Assembly (NCBI RefSeq): GCF_000336775.1
Contig: NZ_AOLJ01000005.1
Coordinates: 211-61,246, forward strand
Source: Haloferax gibbonsii ATCC 33959
GTDB taxonomy: Archaea > Halobacteriota > Halobacteria > Halobacteriales > Haloferacaceae
Reading direction: 5' to 3'
DNA: 61,036 bases
The notes below the pieces were generated by a model. The model saw only the letters and a list, made by a program, of their open reading frames with translations. It searched no databases and was not told the origin of the DNA. This document shows, one piece after another, positions 24,794 through 56,850 of this stretch. Positions within the stretch are counted from its first letter, which is position 1; each line of letters opens with the position of its first letter. The translations under genes and the position numbers were made by a program.

Positions 24794-26083
24794 ATGAACT
24801 CCGAAGCTCGGGCGGAGAGCGTATCCGCCGACGAACCGGAATCGACGGGCGAGGAACCCACCGGAGCAGCACAGCGATACCTCCCGTGGGTAGTCGCCGT
24901 CGGGTCGGTTATCCCGGTCGGCGCGCAGGTCGTGGCGCTCCCGCCGGACCCGACGACGACGGCGCTCGACCTCGTCGGCGAGGGCGTCGTCGTCGCCGTC
25001 CTCTTCGCGTGCCTGTTCGTGGTCCGACGAGTACGCGACCCGTCCGTCTTCTACCCGCTTGCGGGCGGCGTCGCGGCCTCGTACTTGTTCGCGCTAACCG
25101 ACTTCCTCGACGAGTTCGTCGAACAGCCCGTCTGGTTCAGCTATCTGTTCGAAGACGGCGCGCAGGCGGTCGGCGCGGCGCTCCTCGTGTTCGGCCTCTA
25201 CCGGTGGACCGTCGCGCGACAGCGACGGGAGACCGAACTCCGCCAACAGCGCGAGCAGCTCGCCGTCCTCAACCGCGTCCTCCACCACGACATCCGAAAC
25301 GACGCGCTGGTCATCCGCGGGTGGGCGTCGGTCGTGCGGAAGGAGGCGGGGTCGGCGGCCGACGAGCGACTGGAGAACATCGTCGCCGCGAGCAACGGCA
25401 TCATCGACCTCACCGAGAGCACGGCGCAGTTCACCGACGTGCTCACCTCGGAGCGGACCGCCGACCTCGAACCGAAGCCGCTGGCCGAGACCATCGAGAC
25501 GGAGCTTCGGAAGGTCCGCGCCGCGCACGACGCCGACGTGGTCGTCTCCGGAGACCTTCCCGAGGTGGACGTCCTCGCCCACAGCATGCTCTCCGCGGTC
25601 TTCCGAAACCTCCTCGTCACGGCCGTCGAGCGGGCGGACGCCGAACCTCCGCGAATCCGCTTGCGCGCCGAGCGCGGCGCGGAGACCGTGACCGTCCGCA
25701 TCTCCGACGACGGCCCGCCGTTCCCGGAAGGCACCTTCCCGGACGCGGGCGAGACCGTCGCGGGCTCTCCCGAGTCTCGGTCCGGTCTCTCGCTCGTCGC
25801 CGCGCTCGTCGAGCAGTTCGACGGAACCGTCGCGGTCGAAAACGACCCCGATGGCGGTGTCACCGTCGCCGTCAGGCTCAAGCTCGCCGGACACGCCGCG
25901 ACCTCCCCCGCCGACCGAGTCGCCGAGGGGCTCAGTGACACCGAGTCGTCTCCCTCGGCGTCGCACCCGGTGGCGGGCGTCGACGCGGACGACCGAGACG
26001 ACTTCGCCGCCGTGCACTCGGACCGCGAATCGCCGGCCGGTCGGGGGGCGTCGACCGGCCGCGGCGACGCCGCTAACTACTGA
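24794..26083 (+). CDS. Membrane-anchored sensor histidine kinase
   Basis: A 429-residue kinase with four N-terminal hydrophobic helices (about 30-50, 60-78, 87-104 and 122-138), a short helix, the phosphoacceptor motif LNRVLHHDIRNDALVIRGW with His 165 aligned to the phosphorylated His of the HisKA subtype, and a HATPase domain (about 260-375) with N box (AVFRNLLVTAVERA) and ISDDGPPFP. The G2 box is degraded: SRSGLSLVAALVEQ lacks the usual GxGLGL. About 55 residues of acidic low-complexity follow. No response regulator is adjacent. The integral membrane input domain could detect membrane state or a lipophilic ligand; unknown. Confidence 0.82.
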   Translation: MNSEARAESVSADEPESTGEEPTGAAQRYLPWVVAVGSVIPVGAQVVALPPDPTTTALDLVGEGVVVAVLFACLFVVRRVRDPSVFYPLAGGVAASYLFALTDFLDEFVEQPVWFSYLFEDGAQAVGAALLVFGLYRWTVARQRRETELRQQREQLAVLNRVLHHDIRNDALVIRGWASVVRKEAGSAADERLENIVAASNGIIDLTESTAQFTDVLTSERTADLEPKPLAETIETELRKVRAAHDADVVVSGDLPEVDVLAHSMLSAVFRNLLVTAVERADAEPPRIRLRAERGAETVTVRISDDGPPFPEGTFPDAGETVAGSPESRSGLSLVAALVEQFDGTVAVENDPDGGVTVAVRLKLAGHAATSPADRVAEGLSDTESSPSASHPVAGVDADDRDDFAAVHSDRESPAGRGASTGRGDAANY

Positions 26084-26184: not shown

Positions 26185-26826
26185 GTGAGCGACCCACACG
26201 ACTCCCCGGGTGGAAAGCGCGGCCCCGAGAGCAAGGTCAGCCGACTGCTCCGCGAGCGCGGTCTCGACGGGTTCGGCGCGGAGCTCGAACGGCGCTGGAC
26301 CGCCGAGGCGGACGCGCGGTCGAGTCTCCGTGACCTCGCCGACGCGTTCAACCGACGGTTCCTCCGCGCGGCGCTCGACGAACGGAACGAGCGCGTCATC
26401 GACGGCGAGGTCGAGAACCTGTACCGTGTGCTCACCGACGACGGCGTTTCGAGTGGGGCGCGAACGGAGGCGGTCCGCCGACTCGAACGCGCCGGCGTCG
26501 ACGTAGAGCGACTCGAAGCCGATTTCGTCTCGCACCGGGCGATGCGGACGTATCTCACCTCGTACCGCGGCGTGACGCCGCCGTCGGGGACCGACCGCGA
26601 CGACGGTAATCTCCGCGCGCGCCGGTCCCAGACCATTCGACGCCTGCTGGGTCGCGTCGAGCGCGTCACCGACAAGTCGCTGTCCGACCTCGCGGCCGCC
26701 GACGAACTCGACTTCGCTCCCGACGCCGCCGAGGTGTACGTCGACGTTCGCGTCCACTGCCCGGGCTGTAACTCCCAGTACACGGTCGAAGACCTCATCG
26801 ACCGGGGCGGCTGCGACTGCGAGTAG
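26185..26826 (+). CDS. rdfA: Rod-determining factor RdfA family protein
   Basis: A 213-residue protein starting with GTG. It matches the haloarchaeal RdfA family, members of which are known in Haloferax volcanii to be needed for the rod cell shape. Features: conserved N-terminal GPESKVSRLLRERGLDGFGAELERRW, a helical middle (about 50-160), and C-terminal CPGCNSQYTVEDL followed by CDCE, which may bind zinc. The next gene encodes an SMC-related protein, a frequent neighbour of this family. Haloarchaea have several paralogues, so assignment to the shape-determining one rather than a family member is uncertain. Confidence 0.78.
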   Translation: MSDPHDSPGGKRGPESKVSRLLRERGLDGFGAELERRWTAEADARSSLRDLADAFNRRFLRAALDERNERVIDGEVENLYRVLTDDGVSSGARTEAVRRLERAGVDVERLEADFVSHRAMRTYLTSYRGVTPPSGTDRDDGNLRARRSQTIRRLLGRVERVTDKSLSDLAAADELDFAPDAAEVYVDVRVHCPGCNSQYTVEDLIDRGGCDCE

Positions 26827-26903
26827 TCCGGTTCGCGCGCTCCGAACCGCGGTATCGAGCGACCGGTGACGACCGAACTCTCGCGAGTCCTCGGGTCGAA
26901 AAG

Positions 26904-26978
26904 CGTTCCATCGACAGCTGTGGAACGAGTTCGTGGCGCTCGGGACAAGAAACACGTTCCAATGATAGCGTTGGAACG
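26904..26978 (+). promoter_or_regulatory. Two tandem operator-like palindromes before the SMC-related gene
   Basis: The same half-site CGTTCCA-N10-TGGAACG occurs at 26904-26927 and at 26955-26978 (the latter CGTTCCAA-N8-TTGGAACG). Their centres are 51 bases apart, close to five helical turns, so two dimers would lie on the same DNA face. Both are followed by AGTT. The second ends 52 bases before the ATG of the SMC-related gene, where the promoter must be. This looks like a strong repressor site for RdfA, for the SMC-related protein, or for an unlinked regulator. Confidence 0.72.
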
Positions 26979-27030
26979 AGTTTTGGAAGCGTCACCAACT
27001 GTTTTCACGGACCCCCGTGTCGAACATCGT

Positions 27031-28974
27031 ATGGCCACGACGAACGGACCAGCCCGCCTGACCGTCGCGCGATTCGCCGGTCTCGACGACGCGACCGTCG
27101 AGTTCGAGCCCGGCGTCTCCGTCGTCGCGGGACGGAACGAGGCCGACCGAACACCGCTCCTGTGGGGTCTCGCGGCCGCGCTGGGAAGCGATGAACCCCC
27201 GTTTGAGGAGAGCGCTGACGGCGGCCGGGTCGAACTCGCCGTCGAGAGCGAGGTGTACACGCGGGCGTTCGTGAGGGAGGGAGACCGCGTCGTCGCGTCC
27301 GGCGACCCGTATCTCGAAGACTCGACGACCGCGGACCTGTTCGCGTTCCTGCTCGGCTCCAACGAGGCCCGGCAGGCGGTGACCGGCGACCGCGACCTGC
27401 GGGAGTTCGTCACGCACTCGGTCGATACCGACGCCGTCAGCGAGGAAATCGCCGACCTCCGCGCCGAGCGCGCCGAGTTAGACGACCGAATCGCGGAGCT
27501 GTCCGCGCTCGAATCCGAGCGCCCGCAACTCCGCGAGCGCCGCGACGAACTCGACGCGGCCGTCGAGCGCTTGGAAGCCGAGTTGGCGGACCGACGAGAA
27601 GCGCTCGCTCGCATCGAGCCGTCGGCGGTCGACCCCGACGCTGACGCGCGGAGGGAAACCGACACCGACGCGCCGGACGCGGAGGCGCGAGCGGACCGAT
27701 TACGGGAGTTGAACGCGGCGCTCGACGACGCCAAGTTCGAACTCGAAGCCGAGCGGGAGTCGCTCGACGCGCTCGACGCCGAACTCGACGAAGTCGAATC
27801 GGAACTCGCGTCGTGCCCCACCGACCCCGCCGGCGAACTCGACGACCTGACCGACGAGCTCTCCGAGTCGCGCGAGAGAAAACGACGGTTAGACGCGGAC
27901 ATCACCGACGTTCAGCGAACGTTACGGTTCAACGAGCAGTTCCTCACGTCGGGGGTATCGCCCGTCGCCGCGAGCGCGGGCGAAGAGGGCGGGCCCGACG
28001 ACGCCGACCGGGTCGTCTGCTGGACGTGCGGGACCTCGGTCCCCGAAGCGAGCATCGAATCGACGCTCGACCAACTCCGGACGCTCCGCGACGACCGTCG
28101 CGAGGAGCGCGCCGAACTCACCGAGCGTCTCGAACGACTGCAAGAACGCCGGTCGGAACTCGAAGACCAGCGACGACGGCGACGCGACCTCGAAACACGG
28201 CGCGAGGAGTTACGCCGCGAGCGCGCCGAGCGCCGGGCGCGAGTCGAGGACCTCGAAGCCCGACGCGACGACCTCGAATCGGGCATCGCCGACCTGAGAC
28301 GCGACGCCGGGACCGCGGAGGCGGACGACCGCGCCGCGGTCCTCGCCGCCCACCGGGAGGTCAACCGGGTCGAGTTCGAGTTGGAACGGCGACGCGAGGA
28401 GCGCGCCGCCGTCGTCGACGACCTCGATTCCCTCGAAGCCCAACTCGACCGGCGGGCGGACCTCGAAGCGCGGCAGGACGGAATCGACGACCGAATCGGC
28501 GAGCTTCGCGGTCGTATCGAACGGCTCGAACGCGCGGCCGTCTCGGCGTTCAACGACCGAATGGCGGACGTTCTCGACGCCCTCGAATACGACCGCCTCG
28601 CCCGTTTCTGGATCGAGCGACGGAGCGACGGAGATTCCCTCGATGACGCGGGCGCGACTCCCGCGGGGCGGTTCGTCCCGCACATCGAGCGCCGGACGGA
28701 CGATGGCACCGTCTACGAGGACGTTATCGACCACCTCCCGACCTCCGAGCGCGAGCTTATCGGTCTCGTGTTCGCCGTCGCCGGCTACCTCGTCCACGAG
28801 GTGTCCGACGAGGTCCCGTTCTTCGTTCTCGACTCGGTCGAGGCCATCGACGCCGAGCACGTTCGCAGGCTCCTCGCCTACGTCGGTCGGGATGCCGACT
28901 ACGTCGTCGTCGGCCTGTCCGGCGAGAACGAGCGGGGCCTCCCGGACTCGTACCGACGACTTCGGGCACCGTGA
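27031..28974 (+). CDS. Archaea-specific SMC-related protein
   Basis: A 647-residue coiled-coil ATPase-like protein. The N-terminal nucleotide site reads AGRNEADRTPLLWG (about 32-45), where the Walker A Lys is replaced by Arg-Thr, as in the archaea-specific SMC-related group. Two long coiled coils (about 135-310 and 350-520) flank a CWTC zinc-hook-like turn near residue 330. The C-terminus has LPTSERELIGLVFAVAGYL (signature-like) and FFVLDSVEAID (Walker B). It probably binds DNA and helps chromosome organisation. Start ATG 27031 is used because upstream codons cover two operator palindromes. It follows RdfA with a 204-base gap. Confidence 0.85.
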   Translation: MATTNGPARLTVARFAGLDDATVEFEPGVSVVAGRNEADRTPLLWGLAAALGSDEPPFEESADGGRVELAVESEVYTRAFVREGDRVVASGDPYLEDSTTADLFAFLLGSNEARQAVTGDRDLREFVTHSVDTDAVSEEIADLRAERAELDDRIAELSALESERPQLRERRDELDAAVERLEAELADRREALARIEPSAVDPDADARRETDTDAPDAEARADRLRELNAALDDAKFELEAERESLDALDAELDEVESELASCPTDPAGELDDLTDELSESRERKRRLDADITDVQRTLRFNEQFLTSGVSPVAASAGEEGGPDDADRVVCWTCGTSVPEASIESTLDQLRTLRDDRREERAELTERLERLQERRSELEDQRRRRRDLETRREELRRERAERRARVEDLEARRDDLESGIADLRRDAGTAEADDRAAVLAAHREVNRVEFELERRREERAAVVDDLDSLEAQLDRRADLEARQDGIDDRIGELRGRIERLERAAVSAFNDRMADVLDALEYDRLARFWIERRSDGDSLDDAGATPAGRFVPHIERRTDDGTVYEDVIDHLPTSERELIGLVFAVAGYLVHEVSDEVPFFVLDSVEAIDAEHVRRLLAYVGRDADYVVVGLSGENERGLPDSYRRLRAP

Positions 28975-29544
28975 CCCCGAGTTGCGGTCCGAAACGACCC
29001 TCCCGTGACAGACGTAGCTCTGTAATCGCAACCGCTGAAACCGAATTGTTCGAGGAGATGCCCGAACCCACCCCGGGGTTACACGGGTAGGCCTGTTATG
29101 CACGACAGATTCCAGTCGAAGTGACGTCGCAGAGACGGACGTGTGGCCGGGACGCGAGCGGCGGAGTTCGCGTGTCCCGTCGGCTCGTTTCGTGCTGGTG
29201 AACCCGTCCGAAACCGGAATCGTCGACGGAGCCGGGTTGTTCGCGACGGACTGCGATTCTACTAATAGTAGAGTCAAGTGACGTGAACGAGCGCCTCTGT
29301 TCTCGGTGTGCCGCGTGAGCACACGTGTCTAGTTGAACGGGAATCGAATCTTTCGTGGCGAATCACTCAGCGATTCGGATTAATTATGAACATTCGTCAA
29401 TCACCAGAGAGCCACCCCACGGTATCGGTACGACGGAAGCGAGGGCAAACCCGCGTGCGACGGCGTCGGCCGCGGTAGCTCCCGACTCCGTGGGACGTTT
29501 CCACCATCAGTAGAATTTATCTGTCCCGCTCCGAAAGGCGAACT
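28975..29544. other. Intergenic region before the uronate cluster
   Basis: About 570 bases without a gene. It has a palindrome TCTACTA-A-TAGTAGA at 29258-29272, a GTGTGC/GCACAC inverted repeat at 29306-29324, and near 29068 a CCCCGGGG palindrome after the SMC-related gene. The right end holds the IclR promoter and its putative operator (29500-29521). Confidence 0.5.
29500..29521 (+). promoter_or_regulatory. IclR promoter with overlapping operator
   Basis: TCCACCATCAGTAGA at 29500-29514 is a palindrome-like box (TCCAC-N5-GTAGA) that abuts AATTTATC, a TATA box at 29514-29521 located 24-31 bases before the ATG. A nearly identical perfect version occurs at 30360-30374. Position over the promoter suggests autoregulation by the IclR protein. 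Confidence 0.55.
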
Positions 29545-30318
29545 ATGGCACCTAACGAAAGCGAAGGCGGCGGCAAGCGCGTGAAGGCGGTCATGCGCTC
29601 GTACCGGGTAATCGGCGTTCTGCGAGAGCAAGGAACGGTGCGGATTAACGACGTCGCGGACGCGCTCGGGGTGCCGACCAGTACCGCGCACGTGCATCTG
29701 AAAACCCTCGAGGCGGCGGGGTACGTCGTCAAGGACGAACACGGGTACCGACTCGGCCTTCGGTTCCTCCGCGACGGAAGCATCACCCGGGGGCGCTTGG
29801 ACGTGTACGGCGCGTCGCGGTCCGAAATCAAGGACCTCGCGGAGTCGACCGGCGAGGTGGCGAATCTCGGCGTCGAGGAGAACGGACAGCGGGTCATCGT
29901 CTACCAGGCCGAGGGCGACAAGGCGGTGTACGACAACGCGCCGATCGGCGAGTTCACCCACATGCATTGGACCGCGCTCGGAAAGGCGATTCTCGCGGAA
30001 CTCCCCGGCGAGCGGGTGACCGAAATCGTCGACGAGTACGGGCTCCCGACGAAGACCGACCACACGATCAGCGACCGGGACGCGCTCCTCGAAGAACTCG
30101 AGACGATACGGGAGCGGGGGTACGCGCTCGAAGACGAAGAGCGGAGAGACGGGATTCGGTCCATCGCGGTTCCGCTGGTCAGCGACGGGTCGGTCATCGG
30201 CGCGGTGTCGCTTTCCGGACCGAAAGAGCGGTTCAACGACGACCGAATCGTGGACGAACTGTTCCCGGCGCTCAGAGACCGGAAGAACGTCATCGAGGTC
30301 AAGTACGCGTACGACTGA
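29545..30318 (+). CDS. IclR-family transcription regulator (uronate cluster)
   Basis: A 257-residue regulator. N-terminal winged helix (about 10-75: VMRSYRVIGVLREQGTVRINDVADALGVPTSTAHVHLKTLEAAGYVV) and a C-terminal IclR effector domain (about 85-255) with HWTALGKAILAEL and GIRSIAVPLVSDGSVIGAVSLSGP. It sits just ahead of mannonate dehydratase and the TRAP transporter genes, so it probably senses a uronate or KDG-related intermediate. It is one of three IclR proteins in the window. The start is 23 bases after the TATA box, indicating a leaderless message. Confidence 0.88.
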   Translation: MAPNESEGGGKRVKAVMRSYRVIGVLREQGTVRINDVADALGVPTSTAHVHLKTLEAAGYVVKDEHGYRLGLRFLRDGSITRGRLDVYGASRSEIKDLAESTGEVANLGVEENGQRVIVYQAEGDKAVYDNAPIGEFTHMHWTALGKAILAELPGERVTEIVDEYGLPTKTDHTISDRDALLEELETIRERGYALEDEERRDGIRSIAVPLVSDGSVIGAVSLSGPKERFNDDRIVDELFPALRDRKNVIEVKYAYD

Positions 30319-40220: not shown

Positions 40221-41205
40221 GCGTCGGTCGGAGATACGTTGTAAGTGCCTTCCGCGTGATATAAATGAAGTGGTACTCGGCTCTGAAATCGACGGCGGTC
40301 AGCCGGCGGCCGTCACGACTTAATTTTCACACGGCGAGACGCCGACCGTGATGCGAATCACTGGCTGAGTAGATAAGTATACAATATTGAAATGAACTAA
40401 GATATATAAGATATCAATAATAACTCACCAGTAGGTCGCCGACGAGACTCCGAACTCGAACAACAGTGAGAGATTAGCAATGAGCGCACGCAAACAGGAC
40501 GCTCGCTGCTATCTTTGCGAGTTAAATCGAATAGCGAGCGAACAAGTAGTAGATGAGAGTCAACTTTGTTACAGAAGTATATGTCCTCTATTCAAACAAT
40601 ATTTGTCTACAATACTGTAGAAAAATGTTAAGTTAGAGAATTCTAACCTGTTATAGACGATTTGTAAATCGTTATTGAAGACTGAATAGTTCTGAAATCT
40701 CAGTACGAAGAACTCGTCACACGGAGAATCTATAAATTTTGCAGAATGAATTTATTTCCTATATATTACGAGAACCTCGGTACACCAGTGAGGAATCACG
40801 CAACGACCCGTGAAGTCTCGCGCCATGGTATCGGGGCAGTACAGGACGTGTGCGAGATAGACGGTGGTCAGAGATTACACCAGTACTACTGTAATCTAAA
40901 TCTCGGCTGCTGCGAGTAGCCACGCGGTTATCCACCGCGGCAGTAACTCGTAACGCGACTTCGGTCCGACAGCACTCGTCGGAAGGTGTCGAGAGTGGAT
41001 AGCGAACCCGCGTTTCGTGAGATAAAACGGGCGCGCTGGCAGGCGGGACGATTTACAGAAACTTCAAACCGGACCCCGCTTAGATTGCTCGCCTCAGGAC
41101 GAACACAGTCGTACGCAAGCGTAGTTCGAGCCGGTGTCTCAGAACACGATACGTTCGATTTCGTGATGCGAAACAATAAAGTCCCCACGAAACCGACGCT
41201 AGCAT
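40221..41205. other. Nearly 1-kb AT-rich intergenic region
   Basis: Very AT-rich between about 40365 and 40770, in contrast to the surrounding GC-rich genes. It contains TATA-like stretches near 40375-40420 and one small candidate ORF (40480-40620). The rest shows no repeat, RNA or gene that I can support. The right end contains a likely promoter (AATAAAG at 41175-41181) of the IclR gene at 41206. Confidence 0.5.
40480..40620 (+). CDS. Candidate 46-residue Cys-rich mini-protein
   Basis: An ATG-initiated frame of 46 codons with CYLC near residues 10-13 and C-x4-C at 30 and 35 (CYRSIC). Four Cys could bind zinc, as in haloarchaeal mini-proteins, but it lacks the usual CPxCG knuckles. Codon usage is AT-rich, unlike the host. 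It could be a real, horizontally acquired small gene or a chance frame in AT-rich DNA. Confidence 0.3.
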   Translation: MSARKQDARCYLCELNRIASEQVVDESQLCYRSICPLFKQYLSTIL

Positions 41206-41982
41206 ATGACACACAAAGCCAAGAATCCCATCAACTCCGATCTGACGTTGCTCGAAATCCTCAACGGACTGGAGGAACTGGGCGGAGGGCGCATCCAAGA
41301 CATCGCCGACGAGACGGGAATCACCAAAAGCACGGTCCACAACCACCTCAGTACGCTCCGTCAGCAGGGGTTCATCGTTAAGGACGGAGACCGGTACTAT
41401 CTGGGGCTACGGTTCCTCAGACTCGGGGAGGTCGCACGAAACCGCGGGCCGCTGTTCTCGTTCGGTCGCCCGGAAGCGGACAAAGTCGCCAACGAGACGG
41501 GGGAGTTAACCAACTTATCGACCGTAGAACACGGCCGCGGCGTCTATCTCTATCGGACACAGAGCGAACATGAAGTGCGATTTTCGACGGCCGCCGGCGA
41601 GTACCACGACCTCCACTGCTCCGCGACGGGAAAGGCGATACTCGCCTTTTCGCCGGACTCGGTGTTAGACGAATTCGAGGACGTCCACGGCCTGACGAGA
41701 TACACTCAAAACACTATCACGGACCGCGCGGAGCTCGAAGAAAGCCTCGAAACGGTTCGCGAACGCCAACTCGCGTTGGACCTCGAGGAGTACGAAAAGG
41801 GGCTTCGGTGCGTTGCGTCCCCGATTCTCGACAAGGACGACCGCGCGCTCGGTGCAATCAGCGTCTCCGGGCCGGCGATGAAATTCACCGGAGAGTACTA
41901 CCGCGAAACCCTCGCGGAGGCCGTCAAGAGTGCGGCGAACGTTATCAGTCTCAACATCACGCGAACCGAGGGAACGTACTAA
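41206..41982 (+). CDS. IclR-family regulator (catabolic island, first copy)
   Basis: A 258-residue regulator with winged helix (about 8-70, GRIQDIADETGITKSTVHNHLSTLRQQGFIV) and IclR effector domain (CSATGKAILAFSP, KGLRCVASPILDKDDRALGAISVSGP). It begins the island and is followed about 105 bases later by the amidohydrolase operon, which it most likely regulates. It is clearly related to the IclR protein at 56851 (shared TKSTVHNHLSTLR/SKSTAHNHLSTLR, YLYRT and ATGKAILA), so two paralogues bracket the island. The upstream TATA-like box allows a leaderless start. Confidence 0.88.
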   Translation: MTHKAKNPINSDLTLLEILNGLEELGGGRIQDIADETGITKSTVHNHLSTLRQQGFIVKDGDRYYLGLRFLRLGEVARNRGPLFSFGRPEADKVANETGELTNLSTVEHGRGVYLYRTQSEHEVRFSTAAGEYHDLHCSATGKAILAFSPDSVLDEFEDVHGLTRYTQNTITDRAELEESLETVRERQLALDLEEYEKGLRCVASPILDKDDRALGAISVSGPAMKFTGEYYRETLAEAVKSAANVISLNITRTEGTY

Positions 41983-56506: not shown

Positions 56507-56850
56507 GCCCGGTTCCGGGTTCACGCGCCCCGCACTTTTCGCCGTTTTTTCTTCCCGACCACGCAGAGCGTCGCGTCCGCATTCGACAGGGTACTAACAC
56601 GACGAGACCACGGGACGTCGACGGGGCGTTCTATGGCATCGAACGGGTTCGTGCCTGCCGAGCGGTCGTTTGTCCGCCAAATTCGTTACAAGCATAGGCC
56701 TGTAAAACATGTCCGTACCAAAACAACAGTCCACCAGCGGTGTCACAAACCGTCACCAAAGGCGTCGATAATTTTTCAAACGAGCGTTCGACCACGCTGA
56801 ACGATTATCGGTTGGGAAACATTCTATGGGCTGGACGCGGTAGGGGTCAC
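56507..56850. other. Intergenic region after the aldehyde dehydrogenase
   Basis: About 340 bases. Apart from the T-rich terminator at 56536-56554 and a weak TATA-like TTCTATGG near 56822 in front of the IclR gene, nothing was recognised. Confidence 0.45.
56536..56554 (+). terminator. T-rich terminator after the aldehyde dehydrogenase gene
   Basis: Two T runs, TTTT then TTTTTT, begin about 30 bases after the stop codon and fit archaeal intrinsic termination. Confidence 0.5.

Follow-up and report, generated by a model that had tools for sequence, protein, structure and literature searches.

A palindrome pair ahead of an SMC-related gene of Haloferax gibbonsii as a probable variant of a predicted operator class at haloarchaeal IclR genes

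Rod shape in Haloferax volcanii requires RdfA together with an SMC-like partner, and how such pairs are switched is barely known. The window analysed here, a stretch of 61,036 nucleotides from Haloferax gibbonsii ATCC 33959, carries an rdfA homologue followed by a gene for an archaea-specific SMC-related protein (ASRP), and between the two genes stand two long palindromes. We ask which protein would bind them and what that binding would mean for the ASRP promoter.

Exact matches to CGTTCCA-N10-TGGAACG occupy positions 26904–26927 and 26955–26978. A sequence-only reading of the window had described two 24-bp palindromes with centres 51 bp apart, in the order rdfA, sites, ASRP gene, and it was correct both on the palindromes and, as judged from PF21811 and NF045487 matches, on the gene order. 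The locus is laid out as follows.

24794–26083, + strand: histidine-kinase-like gene (HATPase_c; Pfam PF02518)
26185–26826, + strand: rdfA homologue (Pfam PF21811, E 2.3e-69, 233.6 bits against a gathering score of 27)
26904–26927, no strand: distal dyad, CGTTCCA-TCGACAGCTG-TGGAACG, centre about −115 from the ASRP ATG; kept in four Haloferax genomes at a varying distance from the proximal dyad
26955–26978, no strand: proximal dyad, CGTTCCA-ATGATAGCGT-TGGAACG, centre about −64 from the ASRP ATG
27002–27007, + strand: putative degenerate TATA-like element, TTTTCA, assigned by its position in a side-by-side promoter alignment
27031–28974, + strand: ASRP gene (NCBIfam NF045487, 566.6 bits, equivalog cut-off 300)
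29006–29025, no strand: TTACA-class dyad (see below), TGACAGACGTAGCTCTGTAA, one mismatch, between ASRP and the IclR gene
29079–29098, no strand: TTACA-class dyad, TTACACGGGTAGGCCTGTTA, one mismatch, between ASRP and the IclR gene
29545–30318, + strand: linked IclR-family regulator gene (Pfam IclR_C and HTH_IclR), candidate binder

The likeness of the two palindromes continues over 34 nt as a direct repeat, 79% identical. The 4.06-Mb genome has no other exact copy and one additional site with one mismatch; a dinucleotide model gives an expectation of 0.03 exact copies genome-wide and the reversed-pattern control gives none. Of 200 simulated windows of 61 kb, 1 had any pair of dyads with the same arms at most 300 bp apart. 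An extended ASRP frame, starting at an in-frame GTG at 26866, would place the palindromes inside coding sequence; this was ruled out, as the family match begins near the ATG at 27031, and it is also contradicted by a 1-nt indel between the proximal site and the ATG in G140, one of the genomes compared below.

The rdfA–ASRP pair of the window is a third paralogous pair, with an ASRP about 40% identical to the other two of the genome, which are widespread in the genus; of the 15 Haloferax genomes, only 4 have a pair of the window type. Among the three pairs of this genome (L022/L083 and L084), two share one contig, and one pair is closely followed by an IclR gene, with dyads of the TGACA type. 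Although RdfA–Sph3 of H. volcanii (HVO_2174/HVO_2175; PMC10869688) belongs to the same gene families and has the same neighbourhood, the window pair is a separate paralogue, and with so distant an ASRP the published Sph3/RdfA phenotypes are not simply transferable to it. One widespread Haloferax rdfA–ASRP clade, to which one of the other two pairs of this genome belongs, has an intergenic gap of only 34–41 bp without dyads. The plasmid collection contained no close copy of the window locus or of the clade-A rdfA–ASRP pair.

Four of the 170 family genomes contain the exact palindrome, all of them Haloferax and always in the rdfA–ASRP intergenic region. These four (the window's genome, G000, with G140, G149 and G152) are exactly those with the closest ASRP, at 100, 94, 88 and 72% identity to that of the window, the next being at most 44%; a close RdfA (100, 94, 92 and 88% identity) is present in the same four. 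The palindrome thus stands upstream of all four true ASRP orthologues, the comparison on which the sequence-only reading had proposed to be judged. Alignment places two sites in each genome, with the half-site TTCCA in all eight sites and CGTTCCA identical in 15 of 16 half-sites, the exception being a single outer base in G152. The spacer core of the aligned sites is nnGATAGCnn-like; a central TA is present in the proximal site (TTCCAATGATAGCGTTGGAA), and the distal site of G000 has CA where its three orthologues have TA. Centres of the proximal sites lie 63–64 bp ahead of the ASRP ATG in all four genomes. The inter-site distances are 51, 51, 186 and 178 bp, the two 51-bp genomes lacking a segment of the inter-site DNA. 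The five helical turns noted earlier therefore hold in two of the four loci only, 51-bp phasing is not the conserved property and helical phasing is ruled out as a conserved feature; of the earlier argument from phased symmetric sites to a cooperative dimeric regulator, what survives is a conserved pair of operator-like sites ahead of ASRP, as suits a symmetric, dimeric regulator. We conclude that the palindromes are very probably real protein-binding sites, that is, predicted operators.

Other rdfA–ASRP gaps contain dyads with the same 10-bp spacer and different half-sites (ATTACA-N10-TGTAAT, CGTTACA-N10-TGTAACG and ATGACA-N10-TGTCAT). Perfect 6-bp arms around this spacer occur in 11 of 37 non-redundant regions, compared with 1.2 in shuffles, and in a larger set of 65 regions 12 have a dyad, compared with 3.05. 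When spacers of 0–24 were scanned in ASRP promoter regions, 10 stood out, together with 8 and 12, the matches to which are largely the same dyads with the same centre. The commonest form is TTACA-N4-TA-N4-TGTAA. Counted upstream of rdfA or between the genes, a dyad is present at 21 of 66 non-redundant rdfA loci (shuffles 0.085, maximum 1; reversed pattern 0). Where rdfA and ASRP are co-directional, the dyad centre lies 63–65 bp ahead of the ASRP ATG in several lineages and genera, with a TTTATA or TTATAT box about 35 bp downstream. The proximal dyad of the window matches these dyads in geometry and position: it is centred at about −64, some 35 bp upstream of the degenerate TTTTCA, which takes the place of the TTTATA/TTATAT box of other ASRP promoters. 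Seven Haloferax genomes (L104–L109, L111) have a divergent rdfA–ASRP pair rather than a co-directional one; in most of them a single dyad has its centre 53 bp ahead of the ASRP start. Dyads of the TTCCA type also stand directly upstream of rdfA–ASRP in two unrelated genomes of other genera (G309 and G010), in both of which an IclR gene adjoins the pair; elsewhere among 243 genomes such dyads are at chance level, and those by IclR genes in G412 and G293 lie inside the IclR coding sequence and were counted as chance.

The dyad is not exclusive to rdfA and ASRP and belongs to a genome-wide class. Allowing at most one mismatch, TTACA-N4-TA-N4-TGTAA occurs 36 times in the window's genome (25 exact, 11 with one mismatch), as against 3 for the reversed control. 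Of the 36 sites, 15 lie within 1 kb of one of the 21 IclR_C genes, with 0.46 expected (P 2e-19; this binomial value assumes independence between sites, from which paired neighbours depart slightly). Counted by gene, 16 of the 21 have such a site within 2 kb. In the window, two such sites precede IclR genes.

40875–40894: TTACA-class dyad ahead of the IclR gene at 41206
56686–56705: TTACA-class dyad ahead of the IclR gene at 56740

An IclR gene is also linked to 16 of 66 rdfA loci, with 1.28 expected, this linkage being a lower bound given that most loci of the family-wide counts were examined with flanks of about 1–4 kb. Linkage is found at 7 of 21 dyad-bearing and 9 of 45 dyad-less rdfA loci, showing no significant correlation (P 0.35), which speaks against an IclR protein as the binder. 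TTACA-N4-TA-N4-TGTAA is apparently an operator class of haloarchaeal IclR regulators, as predicted from sequence. The window sites share its 20-bp dyad and 10-bp spacer but carry TTCCA, in all eight sites, in place of TTACA, and are therefore described as a variant and not as a plain member of the class.

The clustering of the dyads at IclR genes and the linkage of IclR genes to rdfA loci make the window pair most economically IclR-type operators. We accordingly favour, as the probable reading, that an IclR-family winged-helix regulator binds the palindromes and controls the ASRP promoter. One dimer would occupy each 24-bp site, which has the half-site GTTCCA on either side of a 10-bp spacer with, as a rule, a central TA. 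With its place immediately ahead of the BRE/TATA region, the proximal site is where an activator would be expected if a promoter is leaderless and its TATA-like box weak, and the distal site may contribute a second dimer or a tetramer contact; a metabolite signal would act on the regulator. The dyads would thus be a TTCCA-specificity version of the TTACA-N4-TA-N4-TGTAA class that marks IclR genes and many rdfA–ASRP promoters. From the position of the sites and the weak TATA-like box, activation is probably their role, rather than repression, and the characterised haloarchaeal IclR proteins are activators (PMC11519228). Those that we compared, XacR, GacR, RhcR and MscR, activate sugar catabolism and belong to the same family and the same archaeal class, with genes adjoining the operons that they regulate; their targets are catabolic genes, unlike the ASRP of the window. 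The literature searched contained neither an operator motif for these four proteins nor binding data for the TTCCA/TTACA dyad motif.

Which IclR protein would bind is a narrower matter. The linked gene at 29545–30318 is the leading candidate, with a chance that we put somewhat below even. An IclR gene lies within a few kilobases of the sites in G000, G149 and G152, and the linked protein is 99–100% conserved in G149 and G152. G140, however, keeps both sites and has no orthologue of it, and G147 has an orthologue (98%) without palindromic sites; together these weaken the linked protein as sole binder. The dyads preceding the linked gene itself are of TTACA/TGACA type, not TTCCA. Given these dyads and the sites of G140, the cognate regulator may be another of the roughly 20 IclR proteins of the genome. 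Comparison of IclR recognition helices with half-site specificity revealed no clear rule. In G147 (L145, 9171–9281) a 37-residue remnant of an ASRP C terminus lies upstream of the IclR orthologue, and the rdfA–sites–ASRP module has apparently been lost there. In G140 (L082), DNA that by eye appears to be a transposase-like insertion sequence lies downstream of ASRP, at the place that the IclR gene takes elsewhere, and a TGACA-type dyad remains ahead of it.

The sites bear a partial likeness to those of bacterial IclR proteins, of which the group-1 operators follow GKTYCRYW3-4RYGRAMC (half-site GTTYCR) and which mostly bind at sites centred at −20 to −80, usually controlling their own and adjacent operons (PMC8222616). 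The window sites are likewise palindromic, GTTCCA fits GTTYCR, the centre falls in the −20 to −80 range relative to the start codon, and both tandem sites and proximity to the regulator's own gene are usual in that group. They differ in a spacer of 10 with a central TA, compared with 5–6, and in a tandem spacing of 51–186 bp, compared with 18–22 bp, and we do not file them as group-1 members.

The strongest alternative, which we consider unlikely, takes up a suggestion of the sequence-only reading, that RdfA could be the regulator. In the form considered here, RdfA, alone or with ASRP, would be a DNA-binding autoregulator of TTnCA-N10-TGnAA dyads at rdfA–ASRP loci, and the window clade would have evolved TTCCA specificity. 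In its favour, rdfA, ASRP and the adjacent histidine-kinase gene are the only neighbours common to all four site-bearing loci, and 14 of the 21 dyad-bearing rdfA loci have no IclR gene within the stretch examined. Replicons totalling 800 kb from three RdfA-free genomes contain no TTACA-class sites, but IclR genes are equally absent from that DNA, so the observation is not decisive. Against it, most TTACA-class sites of the genome are remote from every rdfA gene, and the class clusters beside IclR genes, which makes an IclR-family protein a better candidate than RdfA or the SMC-related protein. The confident structural model of RdfA (pLDDT 85) consists of helices, one of them forming a long coiled coil, and has a zinc-ribbon-like C-terminal end. 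No DNA-binding fold is recognisable in it, and comparison with the PDB gave no significant match, whether to helix-turn-helix regulators or to other proteins. The broader form of the idea, that a common operator class with clade-specific half-sites switches RdfA–ASRP modules and that RdfA founds a new archaeal transcription-factor family cooperating with an SMC-like ATPase, is slightly less likely again.

It is improbable that a dedicated regulator of neither kind, such as a CsmR-type Lrp protein or the response component of the adjacent histidine kinase, binds the sites. Deletion of csmR de-represses Haloferax rdfA and sph3, and the CsmR motif TATCA-N4-TGATA is also palindromic and linked to Haloferax motility and shape genes (PMC13286277); the window dyads, however, have other half-sites and another spacer, and the CsmR motif is absent, as read by eye, from 26827–27030. 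The histidine-kinase gene is a constant upstream neighbour of rdfA across the four orthologous loci (found ahead of rdfA in G149 and G152, and at the opposite end of contig C8 in G140), but it encodes a kinase domain and no DNA-binding domain.

Centromere-like or parS-like loading sites for the SMC-related protein, in place of promoter operators, are suggested by an SMC-type ATPase beside a palindrome pair and by the frequent carriage of rdfA–ASRP pairs on plasmids; we regard this as very improbable, there being just two sites per genome, a distance to the ASRP start codon (−63 to −65) and a TATA box fixed across genera, and further dyads of the class at loci that have no SMC gene. Least credible of all are RNA hairpins, terminator or leader, in transcripts through the region, as the perfect 7-bp stems with 10-nt loops might suggest: the stem sequence itself is kept (15 of 16 half-sites, both sites, four species) with no compensatory change, the middle of the spacer is conserved too, and the fixed distances to promoter elements would put the proximal site upstream of the transcript.

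With IclR-type operators as the preferred reading, the analysis more broadly predicts an operator class common to haloarchaeal IclR loci and rdfA–ASRP promoters, of which the window pair would be a distinct specificity variant. The roughly 20 IclR proteins encoded in a haloarchaeon gain a concrete predicted operator; the literature searched contained no motif for them. If the prediction is true, a shared operator class would tie cell shape or chromosome organisation to IclR-type, usually nutrient, sensing, and the TTACA, TGACA and TTCCA versions suggest separate control of several rdfA–ASRP paralogues in one cell.
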